A stretch of DNA of 64,000 bases from Planctomycetota bacterium (lineage in GTDB: Bacteria > Planctomycetota > Planctomycetia > JALXBF01): NCBI GenBank assembly GCA_026991575.1, contig JALXBF010000049.1:1-64000 (forward strand), given 5' to 3'. The translations under genes and the position numbers were made by a program. Position 1 is the stretch's first letter, and every line of letters begins with the position of its first letter. Positions 8,145 to 19,189 of this stretch are shown here, in pieces. The notes below the pieces were generated by a model. That model worked only from the letters and a program-made list of their open reading frames with translations, searched no databases and had not been told where the DNA came from.

Positions 8145-8804
8145 ATGGAGCTCGTTCGCGTGGCAAAGCGACGGCCTGCCAACCGGGAGCGTAACAGGGC
8201 CAGCGATAGGGAACTGGTCCAGCGAGCGATCGAGGAGCGGCGGCAGGGCAAGAGCCCGGCGGCCTATGGTGAGCTGGCTCTTCGATACATGCAACGGCTG
8301 TACAACTTCCTGCTGCGTCAGACCGGTGATCCGACTGAGGCAGAGGATATTGTGCAGCAGGCCCTGTGCAAGGGATTCGAGAATCTGGAGCAGTTCGAGC
8401 AGCGCTCGAGCTTGTATACGTGGTTGTGCCGCATCGCGCTGAATGAGCTTCACAATCGGCGCCGCCGTCAGAAGCCGATCTCGGGGCTGCTGACCAGCGG
8501 CGATGGTGGCGGCGGCGAAGGAACCGCGGCCGTGCTGGAGCCGACCACGGACGAGACTCCCGAGACGATCGCGGCCAGCCGTGAAATGCAGGCACGCGTG
8601 CGCGACGCGCTGCTGGAGCTGCCCGAGGAGTTCCGCACGGCGGTGAACCTGGTCGACTTGGAGGGATTGAGCTACAAGGAGGCGGCTGAGGTGATGGGCG
8701 TGCCCGAGGGAACGGTCAAGAGCCGCCTGAACCGAGGACGACGCATGCTGGCAAGGCGCCTGCTGGGCAGGCGGACCGAGCAACCGCAGGGCGGCCAACG
8801 ATGA
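8145..8804 (+). CDS. ECF-type RNA polymerase sigma factor
   Basis: A protein of 219 residues with sigma region 2 (LALRYMQRLYNFLLRQTGDPTEAEDIVQQA, about residues 43-75) and region 4 helix-turn-helix (YKEAAEVMGVPEGTVKSRLNRGR, about 175-198). No region 3 is present. The linker between the two regions is longer than usual (about residues 105-145). It is followed after 79 bp by a large membrane protein with anti-sigma-like N-terminal repeats, which is the usual sigma/anti-sigma arrangement. Confidence 0.93.
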   Translation: MELVRVAKRRPANRERNRASDRELVQRAIEERRQGKSPAAYGELALRYMQRLYNFLLRQTGDPTEAEDIVQQALCKGFENLEQFEQRSSLYTWLCRIALNELHNRRRRQKPISGLLTSGDGGGGEGTAAVLEPTTDETPETIAASREMQARVRDALLELPEEFRTAVNLVDLEGLSYKEAAEVMGVPEGTVKSRLNRGRRMLARRLLGRRTEQPQGGQR

Positions 8805-8883
8805 GGCGGACTTGGGCCGCTGGACGCGTGCTGACGATGTGTTGGATAAGTGATCGGTCAGGCATCGCGAGGAATACGCTGCG

Positions 8884-10737
8884 ATGAGCCAGCGTCGGAA
8901 CGCGCAAGACGGGGTTGCCAAGGAGCAGCTCATCGTCGAGTACGTCGATGGCACGCTGTCTCCGGAACTGGCCGCGCAGGTGCGCCGCCATATGGAAAGC
9001 GACGCAACGTTCCGCGAAGAAGTGTTGATCCAGCAGCGTGTGAAAGAACTGCTGGCCCAATACCGGCCCCAGGCCCAGCTGCCCCGCTCTGCCGAACGGC
9101 GCATCCTTGGTCGCCTCCAACTCATCGGACGCAGCTACCACCTCTGGCACGAAGTGCTCCGCGCCGCCGCAGAGGACACCGCTGGTGATAGCACCGCTCA
9201 GCACATCGAAGTCACCGCCCTCAGCGTGCTCGTCGACTACTACCTGGATGGCGATTTGCCGGAGGAGCTCCGCGAGCAGTTTGAGCAGCAACTTGCCATT
9301 GACGAGGCACTCCGACGAGAAGTCGAGCAGATGCGCTGGCTCCAGGAAGTGGCGCTGCCCGCCTGCGTCCAGCAGAACTATGAGCCCGCCGGACATGCGC
9401 TGCGCGAGCGGGTGCTGCGCCAGCTGGATAGCGTCGCCCTCCGCAGCAGCAACCGGTCCGAGCAGACGTCATCGTGGTGGCGCCGGGCCGCCGCGGCCGC
9501 AATCTTGCCGTTGCGGCGCTACCGGCCCCAAATGGCGATCGCAGCCGCGGCATCAGTGCTGATTGCTTCGGCTGCTTTCTTCATGCTCCGCTCTTCCCCG
9601 CAAGCCCCCGAAACGCACTCGGTCGACAGGCCACCCGGTACAGCACACACTGTGCCTCCACAGACCGGCGCCGATGCCCCGTTTTTCGAGGGTTTCGTGT
9701 CATCTGGTCCGGAAACCATCCCCGAAGGGGAGCTCGAGTTCCTTCAGCTTAAGGAGACCGGCCAGCTCTGGAACGGCTTCGGCCCGATCCGCGAGCAGCT
9801 GGCTCAGATGGGCCACGGTGCGCTTAGCCGCGTGACCGAGATTGCTGCCAGCCTGCCCTGGCCTCGGTTTGGCACGCGCCGTGAAGCCGCCGGAGCGGGT
9901 TCCGCCGAGAGCGCGCGAGCGCCCGCTTCCGTCGGCAGATACCGGCTCCGGAACCTCTCGACGCTGCTCAACAGACACTCTGCCTCACCGCGCCCGGCGA
10001 AGGAACGGTCCGAGAAGAACGTGGAGGAAGAACTTCTAGCAGCTGCGAAGCACGTCGGACGAACGATCGCATGGGAGGACGACAGCGGCGACCTTCACTG
10101 TGCCGTCGTCGTCGACGCGGTGCAGGCCGACGAAACAATCTCTTTGCTGTGCCGACGCTATGACCTGCAGCTCACCGAAATGGACGACACCGATGCTGAC
10201 AGCGCCGGTAGACTGATGGTGCTGGAGCTGCCCGCAGAGAAAGCCGAAGAGTTGATCAACGAGATGCAGGAGCGGTTCCAGCGGCTACTAACGCAACGGA
10301 CCGCAAAGAACTCGGCGCCCGGCAGTGCAGAAAGCAAGCGAACGAAGGCACCTCAGCCAGAAGTCGTCGAACATCGCGCCCGGAAACGGCCAGCCGATGT
10401 CGATATCGCCCCCACAGCTCTCAACGGCGTGCACGCCGTTACGTTGCCAATCCGATCCGACGAACGGAACGCATTGCTGCGACTGCTAGCCGTCCTTGAC
10501 CAACACGTGACACGAAGTGCGCGCCGTGCCCTCCGTCGGCTGCCCTTCGGTCGTCCAGCGCCCACGCGTCGCCGACCGCCAGAGGAGCACTCCGGAACAG
10601 GTAAGCCCAGCGAGGAACAGCAGAAGAAAGGCAGCAGACGCAAGAGCGACCGAGTCGTTGTTTACCTGTACTTCGTGTTCGAGCAACCTCGCGACACGAA
10701 CGACGAGAGGAAAACCACCCCGCAGCCCAAACGTTAG
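8884..10737 (+). CDS. Probable anti-sigma factor with duplicated N-terminal domain
   Basis: A 617-residue membrane protein. The N-terminal cytoplasmic part holds two related helical units, LIVEYVDGTLSPELAAQVRR... (about 18-60) and LVDYYLDGDLPEELREQFEQQ... (about 115-155), that resemble the anti-sigma domain (ASD). Neither carries the HxxxCxxC zinc motif. One transmembrane helix (AIAAAASVLIASAAFFML, about 217-236) leads to a large extracytoplasmic region of about 380 residues with no recognised domain and a basic, Gln/Lys-rich end. Its place right after the ECF sigma gene supports an anti-sigma role. GAGGA about 10 nt upstream supports the ATG at 8884. Confidence 0.75.
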   Translation: MSQRRNAQDGVAKEQLIVEYVDGTLSPELAAQVRRHMESDATFREEVLIQQRVKELLAQYRPQAQLPRSAERRILGRLQLIGRSYHLWHEVLRAAAEDTAGDSTAQHIEVTALSVLVDYYLDGDLPEELREQFEQQLAIDEALRREVEQMRWLQEVALPACVQQNYEPAGHALRERVLRQLDSVALRSSNRSEQTSSWWRRAAAAAILPLRRYRPQMAIAAAASVLIASAAFFMLRSSPQAPETHSVDRPPGTAHTVPPQTGADAPFFEGFVSSGPETIPEGELEFLQLKETGQLWNGFGPIREQLAQMGHGALSRVTEIAASLPWPRFGTRREAAGAGSAESARAPASVGRYRLRNLSTLLNRHSASPRPAKERSEKNVEEELLAAAKHVGRTIAWEDDSGDLHCAVVVDAVQADETISLLCRRYDLQLTEMDDTDADSAGRLMVLELPAEKAEELINEMQERFQRLLTQRTAKNSAPGSAESKRTKAPQPEVVEHRARKRPADVDIAPTALNGVHAVTLPIRSDERNALLRLLAVLDQHVTRSARRALRRLPFGRPAPTRRRPPEEHSGTGKPSEEQQKKGSRRKSDRVVVYLYFVFEQPRDTNDERKTTPQPKR

Positions 10738-10929: not shown

Positions 10930-11961
10930 TCAGGGGCGCAGCAGCAGTTCGGGAGCAAAGTATCCGTACACGTAGTGGAAGCGCGGGCTGAAAAGACTGG
11001 TTCGCTCTGCACCGTGCCAAGGCTGGCGTCGCATCAACAGGGTGGATAACTGGAGCTGAAACAGGTCGGTCAGTCGCCAGCCGCGGCGCAGCTCGACGAC
11101 ACGTAGCCGCTCCAGCCCGGTCAGCTCGCGGACACGCTCGATCGCATCGTCCAGGTACCCGATGCGGTCGATGAGCCCGTGCTGGAGCGCTTCGTCTGCA
11201 ACGTATACGTCGCCGTTGGCTATGTGCGGCAGCTGCTCTTCCACAATCCGATCCCTTCTGCCCTCACGCACCACATCCAGGAACGTCTGGTAATAGTGCC
11301 GTATCAACTGCATGAACCGCTTTCGCTCCTCGTCCGTTAGCGGTCTGAACGGTGATCCGGCATCCTTCAACGGGCCGCTCTTGAACGTTTCCACTTGCAC
11401 CTGCCACTCGGACAACAGCCCGGAGACGTTGAAGAAGGTCATGCGGACACCGATTGATCCGACCAAAGCGGTCGGTTCGGCGATCACTTCATCCGTGGCA
11501 CATGCCAGGTAGTAGGCGCCCGATGCACCGAGGCCTTGGATAAACGTCACGACTGGAAACGCCGTGTTCGATGTGTCCTGCCGCTGGCGTTTGTACTCCA
11601 ACAGTTCGTGGTACATGCGGTCCGTGGCAGTGACCGTCCCGCCAGGGCTGTCCACTCTAAGGAGCACGCCTCGTACGCGCTGGTCCTTTTCCAGCCGGCG
11701 TAGTGTGCTGCGGAGCGCGGAAGCGGAAGAGGCAGTCAGCAGGCCGTTGATCGGTATGATGACGAGTTTGTCCTCCGCGTCTCGCTCACCGCTGACGAAA
11801 ACCTCACGGTACGGTCTGCCTGTTCGTTCCTGAACGAGGTTGAACAGAACGGCGTTGGTGAGCAAGGAGACAATCAGCAGCAACGCCAGCAGGCGTCGTC
11901 GCCACCTGCCGCGAGGTCTGCCCGCCTTTCCGCCTTCACGGTCGCTGGCCAACTCACTCAT
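10930..11961 (-). CDS. sppA: Signal peptide peptidase SppA (family S49 serine protease)
   Basis: A short-form SppA of 343 residues. An N-terminal signal anchor (LLALLLIVSLLTNAVLFNLV, about 24-43) leads into a ClpP-fold protease domain. The nucleophile is Ser147 in GLGASGAYYLA and the general base is Lys199 in KSGPLKDAGSPF, exactly the numbering of the Bacillus enzyme. The oxyanion-region motif RVDSPGGTV is also present. It cleaves remnant signal peptides and other membrane protein fragments. The start overlaps the preceding gene as ATGA (11958-11961). As last gene of an operon with three SPFH proteins it parallels the known pairing of stomatins with ClpP-class proteases. Confidence 0.93.
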   Translation of the reverse strand: MSELASDREGGKAGRPRGRWRRRLLALLLIVSLLTNAVLFNLVQERTGRPYREVFVSGERDAEDKLVIIPINGLLTASSASALRSTLRRLEKDQRVRGVLLRVDSPGGTVTATDRMYHELLEYKRQRQDTSNTAFPVVTFIQGLGASGAYYLACATDEVIAEPTALVGSIGVRMTFFNVSGLLSEWQVQVETFKSGPLKDAGSPFRPLTDEERKRFMQLIRHYYQTFLDVVREGRRDRIVEEQLPHIANGDVYVADEALQHGLIDRIGYLDDAIERVRELTGLERLRVVELRRGWRLTDLFQLQLSTLLMRRQPWHGAERTSLFSPRFHYVYGYFAPELLLRP

Positions 11962-12521
11962 TGCTGTTCCGGTCTGCCTTCTCCGCCGTTCTGATCTTCG
12001 TTGCGGGTCTGCTGGATCTGCGGCGGTGCCGCGTCCGGGAACGCCGGCGTACCGTACGGCACAGGAGGTTCGAACACGTCAGCCGGTTCGATGTGGTAGA
12101 CGCGCCAGGTGTCGTTCTCTTGTTGCAATCGGTAGGCCTGCCGTTCCCACGGCCTACCTTTGTATACCCGTTCTACGACGATGCGGATTCGGCCGTTGTC
12201 TAGTGTCTCTGTGAGATCGTGGCGGATGGCACGCCCCACGACGCCTTCAAGGCTTTGCTTCAGGTAACTGCGGAACGCCTCCTCACCGCGCTCACGCAGC
12301 TCATTGGCAAGCCTCTGGCGCAGGGTTCCGGTGAAGCAGTCCAGATACTCGGTCACGTCGCCGCGTGCTGCCGCTTCATAGAGTAGGTCGATGCGTTCCT
12401 CCGGCGTGCGGGGCGTAGCTCGGCCCAGGCCACGCCCGGCCATCACGGCGGCCACCGCCAGTACCGCCACCGTCAGCGCGGCAGCAATCGCCTTATGCGA
12501 CCGGTTCGCACCCCGACTCAC
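11958..12521 (-). CDS. Membrane-anchored NTF2/DUF4878-like protein
   Basis: A protein of 187 residues. One N-terminal transmembrane helix (IAAALTVAVLAVAAVMAG) is followed by an alpha+beta region (ERIDLLYEAAARGDVTEYLDCF ... WRVYHIEPADVFEPP) that has the layout of NTF2/SnoaL-like lipoprotein domains. The assignment is by pattern only. The C-terminal tail is Gln/Asn/Glu-rich. It overlaps both neighbours by 4 bp (ATGA), so it is translated together with the upstream HflC-like and downstream SppA genes and probably acts at the periplasmic face of the same complex. Confidence 0.7.
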   Translation of the reverse strand: MSRGANRSHKAIAAALTVAVLAVAAVMAGRGLGRATPRTPEERIDLLYEAAARGDVTEYLDCFTGTLRQRLANELRERGEEAFRSYLKQSLEGVVGRAIRHDLTETLDNGRIRIVVERVYKGRPWERQAYRLQQENDTWRVYHIEPADVFEPPVPYGTPAFPDAAPPQIQQTRNEDQNGGEGRPEQQ

Positions 12522-13489
12522 CGGATAGCCTCTTGCTGCTGAAGCTCTTGCTGGTCACGTCGTTCTGGTTGTTCCCTGTTCTCGATCGGTCTCAGCACCC
12601 CGATATCGACTGGCTTGTGCCGGTCGTCGACCACGATGGTTCGCCGCACGTTGGCCAGCGCGCGGCCCAGGGTGTCGAAGAATAGACGGGCGGTGACCAA
12701 CGACGGCTGTTGGCGGTACTCGTAGAGCAGCTTTCGAAACCGATCCGCTTCTGCCAGCGCGCGGTTGCGCAACTCGGCCGCTTCGGCTCGGGCGCGCTGC
12801 CGGAGAGCATTGGCCTGGGCTCGTGCGGTGAGCCGCTGCTGGTCGGCATAACGGCGCGCCTGCACAACCATCGTTTCCGCCTCTGCGCGGGCTGCGTTCA
12901 CATCGTCGAATGCGTCCTTCACCTCCGCAGGCGCCTCCACTACAGGCAGCGCGATGTCCCGGACCGCGATCCCTAACCCTTGCCGTGCCACCCGCCGCTG
13001 CAACAGCGCCAGTGCCGCAGCGGCAATCTCGGCCTTGCCCGTGGTCAACACGTAGTCGATCTGCCGCGTCGCCAGAACCTCGGACAAAACGCTTACGGTC
13101 AAGCTCGCAAGCACCTTCTCCGGCTGGCTGGTGGCAAACAGGTACGCCACCGGGTCGGAGACCGAGTACTGCACCACGGCCTGCACGACAACCAGGTTTT
13201 GATCGCCGGTCAGGAACAGAGCCAGCGGTGAGGTGGCCGGCATCCCGAGCAGTCGGTCTGCCGCCCCCCTCATGCCCACCGTTAGCCGCTTCACTTCACG
13301 CGGTTTGATGCGATCCACTCGATCCAATCCCCATGGCAGGCCGAAATGTAACCCCGGCTCGCGCAGCGGTGGGTCAAAGCGGCCGAAGCGGCGTACCACG
13401 CCGACTTCGTTCTCAGCCACCGTATAGATGCCCGTTGCGAGGTAGGCAGCCAGTGCGACGATCGCCAGAGCCAGCATCCAACGACTCAT
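12518..13489 (-). CDS. HflC/stomatin-like SPFH protein
   Basis: A protein of 323 residues. An N-terminal transmembrane helix (LALAIVALAAYLATGIY) leads directly into an SPFH/Band 7 domain beginning VAENEVGVVRRFGRFDPPLREPGLHFGLPW, the hallmark entry of HflK/HflC. The domain continues through LFLTGDQNLVVVQAVVQYSV, and a long Ala/Arg/Glu-rich coiled coil (about 205-260) follows. HflK/C form large cages around the FtsH membrane protease. Overlaps of 4 bp join it to both neighbours. A second and third SPFH protein in the same operon suggest a hetero-oligomer. Confidence 0.9.
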   Translation of the reverse strand: MSRWMLALAIVALAAYLATGIYTVAENEVGVVRRFGRFDPPLREPGLHFGLPWGLDRVDRIKPREVKRLTVGMRGAADRLLGMPATSPLALFLTGDQNLVVVQAVVQYSVSDPVAYLFATSQPEKVLASLTVSVLSEVLATRQIDYVLTTGKAEIAAAALALLQRRVARQGLGIAVRDIALPVVEAPAEVKDAFDDVNAARAEAETMVVQARRYADQQRLTARAQANALRQRARAEAAELRNRALAEADRFRKLLYEYRQQPSLVTARLFFDTLGRALANVRRTIVVDDRHKPVDIGVLRPIENREQPERRDQQELQQQEAIR

Positions 13490-14865
13490 GGCTTCCCTCC
13501 GTCACCGCCAGCGGCAGCCTGACCGTCGGCTGCTACCGCCGGCACTTCGGGTTTGGACCCCGCCGGCTCCCCGTTTCCGACGCCGGCCGTAGCCTGCCGC
13601 TCGGTTCGACTCCCGATGGTCGCACCCGATGCGAGTTCGTGGACGGTAGTCAGCAGTCGCATGAGGGGACTTTCTGAGGAAAGCACCAGGACAGCCTTCT
13701 CGTTGAGCATCTTCTGGTACGTTTCCAGCGTCACCAGGAACTCGTAGAAGGTGGGATCTTCCGCGTGCGCTTCATTGGCCACCTTCATTGCTTCTGCTTC
13801 CGCGCGCGCTCGGATCTCGGCAGCATCACGCTCAGCACGCGCCAGCAGCTCGCGCACCTCCTTGTCCGCCTGACTGCGAATCGTCTCGGCGATGCTCCGG
13901 CCTTCGGCCCGCGTCCGGTCTGCCACCGCCTGCCGTTCTGTGCGGATCATGTCATAGATGGCGGAACGGACGGCGGTCGGATGATTGAATCGCTTGATCC
14001 GAACGTCAACGACCTCAATGCCATATTGCTCGTACGCGCTCTTGCGGACCGCATCAACGAGCTTCTGTGCCAACTCATCCAGGAGCACGTCCTCAGGGTT
14101 CAGGCTCACGAACTGCTGCAGCTTCATCTGGCCCACTTCCGCCCGGACCAACGACCAGATGCGGTCTTCGAGTCGGGCCTCAGCCGCTTCGATCGTACCG
14201 ATCGCACGCAGGTAGCGGAGGATAGCGGCTTCGTGTGCCTGGCGCGCCTGGTCCGAGCCCACTGCCACGCCGCTCATCCGTGCCGCAAACTCCGGCGTAG
14301 GCAGCCGCCAGCACGCGAACCACTCGACATTCAGGTTCTGCCCTACCTCCAGACGCTCACTCTGCTGTCCCGCGCCCGGCTCCGCCTCGGGCCGGCTGAG
14401 TCCGATCTGGAACACCCGTCTGGCACCACCCTGGGTAAGCATTTCGCGTCCGGGCGGATTCAGCAATTGCAACCGGCGATCCAGGCGGCGCACCGTCTCA
14501 AACGGCCACTTGAAAGCCAGCCCAGGCTCCACTAGCAGCCGCACCGGCTTGCCGAAAAGCGTAACGTACACGTATTCGGTCTCGTCCACGAAAACGACCG
14601 AGCGAACGAGCAGCACGGCCACGAGTGCCAGGGCAAATAGGCTCAGCGCCACGCGCCGCAGCCGTGTGAGGTTCAGCCGATACGGCCCGGCACTCTGCCA
14701 GTCCTCCCACCAATCCTCGTGATCGTGATCATGGTCATGATGGTGGTGCTCGTGATGCCCATGGTGGTGATGGCCTGGGTCGTGCCGGTGGCCTTCAGGA
14801 CCGTGGGCATGATGGTGCCCGTGGTCACGAGTGTGCGAGCCGCTGGCGATGTCGTCGCGATGCAT
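13486..14865 (-). CDS. HflC-like SPFH protein with His-rich N-terminus
   Basis: A protein of 459 residues from the ATG at 14865, which has GGAG 9 nt upstream; a GTG at 14910 is the alternative. Residues 10-50 are dominated by His, Asp and Glu, with runs such as HHHHGHHEHHHHDHDHDHED, a likely metal-binding stretch on the cytoplasmic side. A transmembrane helix (VALSLFALALVAVLLVRSVVF, about 70-90) precedes an SPFH domain opening VDETEYVYVTLFGKPVR...PGLAFKWPF, typical of HflC. A coiled coil (about 330-385) and a Gly/Ala-rich tail follow. It lies between the ATPase-SPFH fusion and a second HflC-like gene, which suggests a metal-linked partner for the pump. Confidence 0.9.
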   Translation of the reverse strand: MHRDDIASGSHTRDHGHHHAHGPEGHRHDPGHHHHGHHEHHHHDHDHDHEDWWEDWQSAGPYRLNLTRLRRVALSLFALALVAVLLVRSVVFVDETEYVYVTLFGKPVRLLVEPGLAFKWPFETVRRLDRRLQLLNPPGREMLTQGGARRVFQIGLSRPEAEPGAGQQSERLEVGQNLNVEWFACWRLPTPEFAARMSGVAVGSDQARQAHEAAILRYLRAIGTIEAAEARLEDRIWSLVRAEVGQMKLQQFVSLNPEDVLLDELAQKLVDAVRKSAYEQYGIEVVDVRIKRFNHPTAVRSAIYDMIRTERQAVADRTRAEGRSIAETIRSQADKEVRELLARAERDAAEIRARAEAEAMKVANEAHAEDPTFYEFLVTLETYQKMLNEKAVLVLSSESPLMRLLTTVHELASGATIGSRTERQATAGVGNGEPAGSKPEVPAVAADGQAAAGGDGGKP

Positions 14866-14922
14866 CTGGGTTTGCTCCGCTAGTGCGTTCAGCACACGAC
14901 CAAGCCGCACGCGCGCGATGGA

Positions 14923-17900
14923 TCACTCTTCCGGAGGCGGTGGCGGCGGCACGGCCAGCCGCTCGATCGTCTCCTGCAAGAGCCGGCCGAGTCGGGCGAC
15001 GGTGTCCGTGTCGGCCAGCCAGAGCAGCCGCCGACCGGTGCCTGATTGATCAACGATGACCATCTCGCGGTCAGCTACCGCCTGTGCGAGCGTGCGGTGG
15101 TAGAGCCTCAAGGCGGACACGTGCGGCGCGACGCGGTGGCCCGTTAACCTGGCCCGAAACAGCGTCGCTTCCACTTGAGCGCGGGTGACCGTGATGACAG
15201 CCTCCGCCTCGGCCTCGTTCAGGATCCGCCGCGCCGTGCCTTGCAACTGCTGGCGGAGAATGCCCCACAGCGCCTCAACCGGATCACCCGCCACGTTGGC
15301 AGCCACAAGGCGTTCGCTGGCCTGTTGTCCTGCCGAACGAATCAGGCGCTGGACGCGGTATGCTTCCGCTTCGATTTCCAGCCGCTCCCTTTCCTTGTAC
15401 GCCCGGGCAAGTTCACGGAACGCATCGACAACTTCCAGCGGAGGGTGCACGTCCTGCAGTGTCACGGCAACGACCTCTAACGGCAACCCGTAGCCCTCTA
15501 GCCGCTGCTGGATTCGCTCTGCCGCGGCCAGCTCGATCGCGTGCCGGCCGCGGGTCAAGACCGCATTGAAAGACTGGGTCGCCGTCAGTTCCCGGAGCAC
15601 CTCCTCGGCCACCACCCGCACGGTGTCCTCCACGTAGCGGACACGATACAGGTAGCGGAGCACGACGTCCTTGAGCCGATCGGGAGCGATGTGCACCGGG
15701 TCACCGACTGCGACGCGGTACTGGACGGTGGCGTTCAGTTCAAGCAGCCGGTTATCACCGGAAAAGACCAGCGACTCGTCCTCCACCCGCTCCAGCATCC
15801 CATCCCGGTGCGGGCTGTCCCATTCGATTGGCAGCATGCTCTGTTGCAGCGGTCCGGACCGTCGGCGGAACCCGATTTCGACGGCGCGCACTCTAGCGAC
15901 TGGCACCCGGTCGACCAGTTCCAGTGGTTGGGGGAGTCGCCAGTGCAGACCGGGCTGCAAGACGGCGTGGAACTTGCCGAAACGGCGTACGGCACCGATC
16001 TCATCCGGTCCGATCACGGTCAGCCCGCTGGCCAGGTACGCGGCGGCAGCCGCCGCCAGCGTCGCGGCGGCGAGCCGACGACGGCGGTACCAGCCCCAGG
16101 CGACAGCCGGGGTGAAAAAGTCTGCCACGCGCATCACCCAGCGGGCGGCTGCCCGTTCCATCCGTCCCAGTGCCGACCGCTCCCACTTCTCAAACCAGAG
16201 CAGTCGGACAGCGTTGCAGAGCACCAGGAACGAGCCGATCTGATGCGTGATCGCAGCTCCGATTGGGCCAAGCACTTCTTCGGCCGAGAGGAGGATGGCG
16301 CCGGTGTTCAGGCCGAAGGCAAACACAAGGATGTTCTGCCGGATCACGCGCATCACGGCGCGGCTAAAGCGGATCAGTTCGGGCAACGGCTTCAGTGGCT
16401 CACCCATCAGCACCAGGTCGCCGGCCTCCGCGGCGATGTCTGTGCCGACGCCACCGAGTGCCAGACCCGCGTCGGCCACGGCCAGGGCGGGGGCATCGTT
16501 GATGCCGTCGCCAACCATGCCCACTCCGGGCAAGGTGCGTCGGATCCTCCGTTCGCGCAGCCGTCGCCGGTCTCTGTCCCGCACTTCCATGCGCCACTGT
16601 TCGATCCAGCGTGCCTTGTCCGCCGGAAGCATTTCCGCCTCGAACCGGTCAACCCCAACCTGCTCTGCGATGCGGGCCGCCACAGGCCGGCGGTCGCCAG
16701 TCAATAACACGATTTCGCGGATGCCCAGGTGTCGCAGCTCGTGGATGACGTCGGCGGCTTCGGGCCGCACGCGATCTTCAACCCCCAGGGCCCCGACAAC
16801 CTCGCCCTCCACGGCCACCAGCAGCGGACTCATGCCATGCGCTTCCAGCTCCTCCAGCGTGGCTATGGCTGCCTCGACGCCGCGCACGCCAAGCTCCTGC
16901 ATCAAGCGTCGGTTTCCGATGACAACTCGGCCGACGCCGGGCACGGTTCCTTCGATGCCTGCACCGGGATGGACCTTGAAGTCGACAACTTCCGCCAACG
17001 TCAGGCCTCGTCGCTGGGCTTCGGAAACGATCAGCTTCGCGATGTGGTGCTCACTGAGCGACTCGACGGCCGCTGCCCACGCCAGGAGCTGGTCCTCGGT
17101 CACGTCGCCCAGTGGCACGACGCGGCCCAGGTGAAGCTTGGCCTGGGTAAGCGTGCCGGTCTTGTCGAACGCCAGGTAGCGGACGGTGGCCAGCCGCTCC
17201 AGCGCTTCGCTGGCCTTCATGATCACCCCCCGGCGCGCCATCCAGGCCATGGCCGCCATTGCGGCTGCCGGTGTTGCGAGGATGAGGCCACATGGGCAGG
17301 CGACGACCAGAACGGCAAGAGTGGGCATCCAGTTCAGGTTTCTCCAGGAGGGAGCCCCCCAGTTCGTGTAGATCAACGTCAGGACCGCGGCGGTCAGCAC
17401 GGCGGGCAGGAACATTCGGGCATAGCGATCGGCCAGGCGTTCGATCGGTGCCTTGCGTGTCTGGGCCTGCGCCACGAGCTTGATGACCTGGCCCAACGTC
17501 GTTTCTTCGCGCACCCGCTCGGTACGGATCCGAACGGCTCCGTACTGGTTTAGTGCTCCGGCGTAGATCTTGTCCCCCTCCCCTACGTCCACCGGCAGGC
17601 TCTCGCCAGTCAGCGCGCTCTGATCCACCGTGGTGCGGCCTTCGATGACGACGCCGTCGACCGGCACGCGCTCCCCGGGACGAACGATGACGACGTCTCC
17701 GGGTTCGACCTGCTCGATGGGCACTTCGACTTCCGCCCCGTCCCGCAGAACGCGGGCGGTTCGCGGAGCAAGTTCAAGGATCTTGCGCAACTCCCGGTGG
17801 GCACGCTTGAACGCTACCGCCTCCAAGGATTCGCCCACCATCGCGATGAATGCCACCTCGGCCGCCACCCAGTATTCGCGCAGCAGCAACGCAGCGAGCA

Positions 17901-18165
17901 TGGCGATGGCCAGCGCGATGTCGGCACCGATGTTGCCTTCCAGGATGCCGACCAACGCCGCATAGACGATGCGAGCCCCCCCGATCAAGGCGGCAATCAG
18001 CGCAAGGTCGTAACCGAACGGTTGTTGCAGCGTGGTCCAACCAAGCCAGCGGAACAGTAGGTCTGCAGCGATGAGCACGCCGAGCGTGGCAGTGAGCAGA
18101 TAGAGCGAGCGGAAGGATGGAAGCTCCAGCGCTTCCCGCGGATCCACGCTATGCTGCATGTGCAT
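14923..18165 (-). CDS. P1B-type metal ATPase fused to an HflK-like SPFH domain
   Basis: A 1080-residue fusion. Residues 1 to about 660 are a heavy-metal P-type ATPase with the transport motif CPC at about 290-292, LTGES at about 183-187, DKTGTLT at about 333-339 (phosphorylated Asp) and GDGINDAPAL at about 553. It has no N-terminal metal-binding domain or CxxC. The usual SEHP of the nucleotide domain reads SEHH here (codons near 17041-17061). After the last ATPase membrane helices a further transmembrane helix at about 690-710 starts an SPFH domain (VIGPDEIGAVRRFGKFHAVLQPGLHWRLP) with a coiled coil to the end, as in HflK. No stop or frameshift separates the halves. The metal is not determinable from sequence. 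It heads the operon down to SppA. Confidence 0.93.
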   Translation of the reverse strand: MHMQHSVDPREALELPSFRSLYLLTATLGVLIAADLLFRWLGWTTLQQPFGYDLALIAALIGGARIVYAALVGILEGNIGADIALAIAMLAALLLREYWVAAEVAFIAMVGESLEAVAFKRAHRELRKILELAPRTARVLRDGAEVEVPIEQVEPGDVVIVRPGERVPVDGVVIEGRTTVDQSALTGESLPVDVGEGDKIYAGALNQYGAVRIRTERVREETTLGQVIKLVAQAQTRKAPIERLADRYARMFLPAVLTAAVLTLIYTNWGAPSWRNLNWMPTLAVLVVACPCGLILATPAAAMAAMAWMARRGVIMKASEALERLATVRYLAFDKTGTLTQAKLHLGRVVPLGDVTEDQLLAWAAAVESLSEHHIAKLIVSEAQRRGLTLAEVVDFKVHPGAGIEGTVPGVGRVVIGNRRLMQELGVRGVEAAIATLEELEAHGMSPLLVAVEGEVVGALGVEDRVRPEAADVIHELRHLGIREIVLLTGDRRPVAARIAEQVGVDRFEAEMLPADKARWIEQWRMEVRDRDRRRLRERRIRRTLPGVGMVGDGINDAPALAVADAGLALGGVGTDIAAEAGDLVLMGEPLKPLPELIRFSRAVMRVIRQNILVFAFGLNTGAILLSAEEVLGPIGAAITHQIGSFLVLCNAVRLLWFEKWERSALGRMERAAARWVMRVADFFTPAVAWGWYRRRRLAAATLAAAAAAYLASGLTVIGPDEIGAVRRFGKFHAVLQPGLHWRLPQPLELVDRVPVARVRAVEIGFRRRSGPLQQSMLPIEWDSPHRDGMLERVEDESLVFSGDNRLLELNATVQYRVAVGDPVHIAPDRLKDVVLRYLYRVRYVEDTVRVVAEEVLRELTATQSFNAVLTRGRHAIELAAAERIQQRLEGYGLPLEVVAVTLQDVHPPLEVVDAFRELARAYKERERLEIEAEAYRVQRLIRSAGQQASERLVAANVAGDPVEALWGILRQQLQGTARRILNEAEAEAVITVTRAQVEATLFRARLTGHRVAPHVSALRLYHRTLAQAVADREMVIVDQSGTGRRLLWLADTDTVARLGRLLQETIERLAVPPPPPPEE

Positions 18166-18373: not shown

Positions 18374-19189
18374 TCAGGGAAAGTAGCGACGACTCTGGTA
18401 GACCAGCCGGCCATAGGCCTCGATGCGCGCCCGCTCCTGGTAGGTCACCGGCCGCCAATCGTCCAGAAGCGTGAGGTTCTCCATCAGCTCCCTGCGGTTC
18501 CCCGGCGCCATGAGGACCACGGCCACGTCCGGGTGGGACAGAGCGTAACGATAACATTCTACCGCACTCAACGGTCGATCCCGGCCGTTGCCCGGCAGTG
18601 GCCGGATCAAGTGGCCCCAGCGCAACGCGGTGAACACGACGACGGGTAACCCCATCGCCCGCGTCACTGGGAAAACGTCTCGCTCCGCACCCCGGTGCGC
18701 CGCGTTGTACCGCACCATCAGCAGATCCAGGGCACCGCCGCGAGCAAGCTCCGCAGCAAGCCGGCGGTTATGCGTCGTCAGGCCAATCATCCGCACCGCT
18801 CCGGCCCGCTTCAGCTCCGTTAGCAGTCGGTGGGCCCCTCGGCGCGGCTCCATGATCTGCTGCCACTCTTCCATGCGTTGAACGTAGTAGTACGTGACGA
18901 CGTCCACATAGTCGGTACCCAGCTTCGTGCAGATCGTGTCAAACTCGCGAGCGGCCTCATCGTACGCACGGGCCTCAAACTGAACCGCCACGCAAACGTC
19001 ACGCCTTCTGCTGCCAAGGTTGCGCACAGCGCGCTGCAGACCGTCCTCATGACCACACCAGTTCCAGTAGTTCACCCCACGCTCCAACGCCAACCACACC
19101 CCCGCCTCATCCACGGCCGCATTGCCGCGCGTGGCCAGACCAAGCCGGCAGACTGTCCCGCATTGTCCCAGTGCTACGACGCGTTCCAT
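18374..19189 (-). CDS. Aldo/keto reductase family protein, catalytic tetrad not conserved
   Basis: A 271-residue TIM-barrel protein of the aldo/keto reductase family. The family pattern is visible in ERGVNYWNWCG, KLGTDYVDVVTYYYV, AGAVRMIGLTTHNRRLA and GLPVVVFTALRWG. The residues that form the catalytic Asp-Tyr-Lys-His set appear replaced: the DTA...Y strand reads NWCGHED, the Lys position reads VQF, and the His of the usual YxxH strand is Tyr. The length is shorter than the usual 310-330. It may bind a ligand or NADPH without normal reductase activity. It is divergent from the PVC cytochrome gene. Confidence 0.8.
   Translation of the reverse strand: MERVVALGQCGTVCRLGLATRGNAAVDEAGVWLALERGVNYWNWCGHEDGLQRAVRNLGSRRRDVCVAVQFEARAYDEAAREFDTICTKLGTDYVDVVTYYYVQRMEEWQQIMEPRRGAHRLLTELKRAGAVRMIGLTTHNRRLAAELARGGALDLLMVRYNAAHRGAERDVFPVTRAMGLPVVVFTALRWGHLIRPLPGNGRDRPLSAVECYRYALSHPDVAVVLMAPGNRRELMENLTLLDDWRPVTYQERARIEAYGRLVYQSRRYFP

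Follow-up and report, generated by a model that had tools for sequence, protein, structure and literature searches.

The DNA that we analysed (hereafter "the window") is a stretch of 64,000 nucleotides from a Planctomycetota bacterium. Its minus strand carries five consecutive open reading frames, all of them verified in the ORF list of the window (Table 1), as expected from a first-pass annotation which had read here five genes in one direction. The same annotation had described three stop/start overlaps of the form ATGA: the two outer ones are indeed ATGA, while the middle one is GTGA. The fusion gene is separated from the HflC gene by 12 nt, GC3 lies between 0.71 and 0.78 across all five genes, and a promoter/terminator scan of the operon gave a signal no better than that of shuffles. 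An aldo/keto reductase-like gene (positions 18374-19189) lies about 0.2 kb upstream of the operon, in the same direction, and an ECF sigma factor gene, followed by the gene of a 617-aa zf-HC2 putative anti-sigma protein (positions 8145-10737), is convergent with it.

Table 1. Genes of the operon and overlaps between them (positions in the window).
Feature	Position	Strand	Length
P1B ATPase-HflK-type SPFH fusion (gene 1)	14923..18165	-	1080 aa
HflC-type SPFH protein with His-rich N-terminal tail (gene 2)	13486..14910	-	474 aa
Second HflK-type SPFH protein, without transporter domain (gene 3)	12518..13489	-	323 aa
Membrane-anchored NTF2-like protein (gene 4)	11958..12521	-	187 aa
Short SppA, peptidase S49, one N-terminal TM helix (gene 5)	10930..11961	-	343 aa
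HflC-HflK stop/start overlap, ATGA	13486..13489	-	
HflK-NTF2 stop/start overlap, GTGA	12518..12521	-	
NTF2-SppA stop/start overlap, ATGA	11958..11961	-	

The protein encoded by gene 1 begins with a pump. This part scores 553 bits with TIGR01525 (cut-off 346), hence it is a P1B-type heavy-metal ATPase; it extends approximately over residues 20-657, has 8 TM helices and shows CPC at 290, DKTGT at 334, GDGIND at 552 and, in TM8, HQxxS at 641. A Pfam scan found no N-terminal HMA domain in this ATPase. After the pump come a ninth TM helix (approximately 692-712), a Band_7/HflK-type SPFH domain (717-935) and long C-terminal helices. The Band_7 domain reaches 148 bits with TIGR01933, slightly below the cut-off of 159.4, and its best match among solved structures is HflK of E. 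coli. The P1B ATPase-HflK fusion recognised at first pass is thus real, and since it is found in about 109 distinct proteins it is not due to chance. Nor is it an artefact of assembly or gene calling: it occurs in many independent assemblies, including the complete genome of Singulisphaera acidiphila (L074). In one further locus (L042:5920-9313, genome G055) the ATPase-SPFH gene is spread over two overlapping frames, by a frameshift or a sequencing error, next to intact HflC and HflK genes.

When 22 fused proteins are compared, TGES, CPC, DKTGT, TGD and GDGINDAP are invariant or nearly so, and TM8 follows the consensus HQxxSLxVLxNsxRLL, which aligns to HEGST...NALRLL of the P1B-4 structure 7qbz. 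The P1B-4 (CoaT) subclass is defined by SPC in TM6 and HEGxT in TM8, both visible in 7qbz. We therefore rejected this subclass for the fused ATPase, whose CPC in TM6 and HQxxS in TM8, taken together, match exactly none of the well-known P1B classes. An AlphaFold model of the fusion, built with the 22 sequences (mean pLDDT 79, pTM 0.60, that is of moderate confidence), displays 8 TM helices, a linker, the helix 692-712, the SPFH domain and long helices up to the C-terminus. As the pump has an even number of TM helices, the ninth helix would bring the SPFH domain outside, like those of HflK and HflC. The TM count of the pump, the ninth helix and the charge pattern agree on this extracytoplasmic position, which we take as probable on the grounds of hydropathy and of the predicted model.

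The two following genes encode the partner SPFH proteins. Gene 2 is an HflC (TIGR01932, 142.7 bits, cut-off 134.4) and also matches HflC among solved structures; it has 22 His in residues 1-70, so that its first description as a His-rich HflC-like protein was accurate. Its TM helix lies at 90-108, and an in-frame ATG at codon 16 provides an alternative start. Gene 3 had been called a second HflC-like protein; in fact it is an HflK, with 187.6 bits for TIGR01933 (cut-off 159.4) and a match to HflK in the PDB at E 1e-35. Genes 3, 4 and 5 each encode a single N-terminal helix, which in gene 4 spans residues 11-29, with a domain predicted to be extracytoplasmic. For gene 4 there is no Pfam match at E 0.001 (SnoaL_2 is weak, E 0.012); the Foldseek search with its AlphaFold model gave as top match the NTF2 domain of RsgI9 (E 3e-4) with many NTF2-like folds ranked behind it, all at low TM-scores, and this agrees with the NTF2-like character first attributed to it. 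Elsewhere, the genome of the window possesses a canonical HflK-HflC pair of its own as well as two genes for FtsH. Hence, we concluded that the operon is not the housekeeping HflKC operon.

The full fusion is present in 23 of the 59 genomes of the same class and in 3 of the 294 genomes of an even draw across the phylum. Among named genomes it occupies 80 loci, mainly in Isosphaeraceae, Gemmataceae and Planctomycetaceae, and also on contigs labelled Acidobacteriota, Bryobacteraceae and Armatimonadetes. Full-length matches were found in 14 of 247 genomes sampled from the phylum of the Bryobacteraceae locus (one of the 14 was known before sampling) and in 10 of 121 sampled from that of the Armatimonadetes locus (two of the 10 were known before). 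HflC lies nearby in 74 of 104 fusion loci and HflK in 63; the other loci are in part truncated by contig ends and in part split modules. The NTF2-like gene comes fourth in 9 of these 104 loci, including that of Singulisphaera acidiphila and a 1.1-Mb Bryobacteraceae contig (L101), as well as in most of the Acidobacteriota/Armatimonadota loci L207-L217. The first-pass annotation had suggested a search for the whole five-gene neighbourhood in order to learn whether it is confined to this genome. It is not, as far as the first four genes are concerned: the order fusion-HflC-HflK-NTF2 recurs in three phyla, Planctomycetota, Acidobacteriota and Armatimonadota.

The fusion is isolated from its partners in eleven of the class genomes. 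One could take such "orphan" fusions as an argument against a partner. We rejected it, as all eleven genomes contain elsewhere an HflC of the module type (262-351 bits on the module-HflC score, on which the canonical HflC of the window genome obtains 188 bits), usually with an adjoining HflK. Nine of these HflCs from split modules were placed on a tree, and all fall within the clade of HflCs from ATPase modules (SH-aLRT 99); a further row labelled "split" (L235) is L026 again and not a split case. Over the class, an HflC scoring 261 bits or more exists in 23 of the 23 genomes with the fusion and in 0 of the 36 without it (highest score 258), for a Fisher p of 7e-17 which must be read with the facts that the threshold was picked post hoc and that the genomes, being related, are not independent. 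In four genomes a gene of about 710-760 aa stands upstream of the split HflC-HflK (L243:1236-3383, L244, L246, L247); that of L243 has weak esterase/peptidase S15 matches.

The order X-SPFH, HflC, HflK is kept when the ATPase is replaced by other transporters, X always being N-terminal to the HflK-type SPFH domain. In ten loci (L141-L146, L148, L149, L151, L153) and in Acidobacteriota (L218-L220, L226), X is a Cu/Zn efflux transporter of the SO_0444 family, an assignment resting on NF033936 in the four tested members (367-398 bits, cut-off 300) and on BLAST in the rest. In L157, L221-L223, L225 and L163, X is a CDF transporter. The last of these (L163:5258-16588) belongs to a conjugative plasmid of Aquibium oceanicum B7, so that here the module is mobile and has copper-related neighbours: the CDF-HflK fusion is followed by HflC, HflK, a peptidyl-prolyl isomerase, a P1B ATPase, PCu(A)C and SCO. 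This was the one CDF-HflK fusion operon yielded by a search of plasmids, which returned chiefly canonical HflK-HflC pairs. On another plasmid, from Methylophaga thalassica (L159:2532-9832), an HflK-HflC pair is divergent from genes for a MerR regulator, a heavy-metal-associated protein and a P1B ATPase. Finally, in L138-L140, L147, L150, L152, L154, L155 and L224, the place of X is taken by a polytopic domain of about 300 aa which has no annotation and, in the members tested, no Pfam match; in the operons of this type the fourth gene is an unfused P1B ATPase.

On a tree of 63 rows, a branch with support 100/98 divides 53 module HflCs, of all X types, from the 10 canonical ones. We thus rejected the idea that the module HflC is a housekeeping one. 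On this tree the five labels (the four X types and the canonical type) require five changes, which is the minimum plus one. A quick tree with more rows gives the same split between module and canonical HflC with an SH-aLRT of 84. Among the ATPases, the fused ones group together (SH-aLRT 95), as do those encoded unfused in the operons, in a clade of their own (100).

A His-rich tail (at least 6 His per 20 residues) precedes TM1 in 21 of the 109 fused proteins, compared with 30 of 842 other ORFs, which were scored over their whole length and include spurious ORFs (p 2e-8). In the window it is HflC, and not the ATPase, which bears such a tail. A His-rich HflC is not a trait of the window only, as the HflCs of L207 and L208 have the tail too, there together with a tail on the ATPase, and in L210 and L211 a His cluster occupies the linker from TM8 to TM9. 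These three positions, the N-tail of the ATPase, the N-tail of HflC and the linker, are all predicted to be cytosolic; for HflC, the positive flank N-terminal of the TM helix makes this probable. A likely metal-binding tail which shifts between the pump and HflC supports the idea that both act at one site.

That a metal pump is physically tied to an SPFH scaffold, as the first-pass annotation had it, is strongly supported by the fusion itself, by the co-occurrence with a dedicated HflC, by the exchange of exporters and by the conserved gene order. With a fused domain of the K type and a gene 2 of the C type, one would most simply expect a K/C assembly where part of the K subunits bear the pump. 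We propose that the operon encodes a heavy-metal efflux pump which is integrated in an SPFH assembly of the HflK/C type and receives its metal from His-rich tails in the cytosol, a reading to which we give a probability of roughly two thirds. The pump would itself be a subunit of the assembly: the 8-TM ATPase would end in the cytosol, the ninth helix would cross the membrane, and the SPFH domain would stand outside, where it would alternate with the HflC-type protein. The plain HflK of gene 3 would serve as a K subunit without a transporter and dilute the pumps in each ring. The His-rich tails, carried here by HflC and in relatives by the ATPase, might gather metal at the entrance of the pump and so stand in for the missing N-terminal HMA domain, and the NTF2-like protein might be an extracytoplasmic accessory. 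Such an assembly would concentrate or stabilise metal exporters in a single membrane patch. The ring, the alternation of its subunits, the capture and export of metal and the identity of that metal are what we infer. One may go further, tentatively, and consider HflC/HflK as a general swappable chassis, in which P1B, SO_0444 and CDF exporters enclosed in an SPFH cage discharge metal into a walled extracytoplasmic chamber and not freely into the periplasm; we think this extension rather doubtful.

The resemblance of both partner types to HflK and HflC, their closest relatives among solved structures, could also point to a role in FtsH-type quality control. The three SPFH proteins would then cage FtsH, and the fused pump would be degraded or controlled there, or would report metal stress. 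The genome of the window has two FtsH genes, and in Mycobacterium tuberculosis the scaffold PacL is known to set the abundance of a pump (PMC9374683). However, no FtsH was seen in the module operons, the genome retains its canonical HflK-HflC pair apart from the module, and the module HflCs form a clade of their own. Moreover, the HflK-type domain is found fused to exporters of three unrelated families, which is better explained by a scaffold for transport than by an adaptor of a protease. Hence we regard the involvement of FtsH as unlikely.

The protease in question could instead be the SppA of the operon, in a metal-linked membrane quality control similar to that of stomatin with an NfeD/ClpP-class partner. 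The SppA assigned to gene 5 at first pass is genuine: it scores 178.6 bits with TIGR00706 (cut-off 155.45) and has Ser147 and Lys199 in the expected motifs, the Ser/Lys dyad of the S49 family. In this genome its gene shares an ATGA with the NTF2-like gene, and it is the second S49 enzyme, the other one being a 603-aa SppA encoded elsewhere. However, SppA lies beside the module in this genome only and in none of the other fusion loci examined, in a sample which held no other member of the window's family, and nothing in relatives connects SppA to metal exporters. We therefore rejected SppA as a conserved gene of the module; it is probably a lineage-specific add-on. Support is lacking for the complex of quality control with an S49 protease, which had been the first interpretation of this operon, as the core kept in three phyla is made of four genes; nor is quality control linked to SppA supported as a general function, and even for the window we consider it very improbable. 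The first reading had underestimated the locus with respect to the conserved and modular exporter-SPFH family and overread it with respect to SppA and quality control.

In many bacteria SPFH proteins are markers of membrane microdomains, and the fused SPFH domain diverges more than the ATPase (approximately 33% against 54% identity to L074), so that it might be a passive tail which sorts the pump or alters lipid order with no defined HflC/HflK ring; but a dedicated HflC accompanies the fusion strictly, even where its gene lies at a distance, and the K-C-K gene order persists with three types of exporter, both of which imply that HflC is a partner in fixed stoichiometry and the SPFH domain not a mere tail. 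The passive tail is therefore the least probable of the explanations.

In these modules SPFH is joined to its cargo, several unrelated kinds of metal exporter, within one gene, so that the cargo can be read from the sequence. This bears on the roles of bacterial SPFH rings beyond the housing of FtsH. If an exporter is built into the assembly as we propose, SPFH scaffolds would have a direct role in metal transport, and proteins annotated as "FtsH protease activity modulator HflK" could belong to metal exporters; WP_072608301.1, the CDF fusion of Aquibium, has this annotation only.

Among known systems, HflK/HflC-FtsH (the SPFH3 operon; 7vhp, 7wi3, 9cz1) is similar in having K-type and C-type SPFH neighbours, with one N-terminal TM helix, as in the module partners, and an SPFH domain outside, as is predicted for them. 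In E. coli, HflK and HflC form mixed 24-mers enclosing FtsH, and Arg191 is the reported HflK-FtsH contact, in a numbering which differs from that of the aligned HflK chain (PMC12048511). The module differs in that its first K-type subunit bears a whole metal exporter, in its extra K-type subunit, in the separate clade of its HflC and in operons where FtsH was not seen. The stomatin/flotillin-NfeD operons (SPFH1, SPFH2, SPFH5; PMC2636767) likewise combine SPFH with a membrane partner, whereas the module of the window has neither an NfeD nor a STOPP protein. The words "transporter" and "ATPase" are absent from that survey of prokaryotic SPFH proteins, and we found no paper on SPFH-transporter fusions in the open-licence literature searched. 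The P1B-4 Co/Zn/Cd ATPases (sCoaT, 7qbz) and other P1B pumps share with the fusion their fold and catalytic motifs; compared to P1B-4, the fusion has CPC instead of SPC, HQxxS instead of HEGxT, a C-terminal SPFH domain and no N-terminal HMA domain. The individual domains are thus all known; their covalent combination, an exchangeable metal exporter with an HflK/HflC scaffold, appears undescribed in that literature, and the module seems to represent a family of scaffolded metal exporters not reported before.

Functionally, the closest parallel is probably the PacL/Ctp effluxosome, with an unrelated scaffold. In Mycobacterium tuberculosis, PacL is a scaffold with a DLHDHDH motif which clusters P1B ATPases into membrane platforms (PMC9374683, PMC13043812). 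The scaffold of PacL/CtpC has a metal-binding tail (His/Asp in PacL1), as that of the module probably does, and like it is co-operonic with the pump. PacL is however a small single-TM protein, not SPFH, and its foci are flotillin-independent, whereas the scaffold of the module is SPFH and covalent to the pump; a Pfam scan found no PacL domain in any of our five proteins, so that the likeness would be one of function only. If our proposal is correct, the module would represent another answer to the effluxosome problem known from M. tuberculosis.
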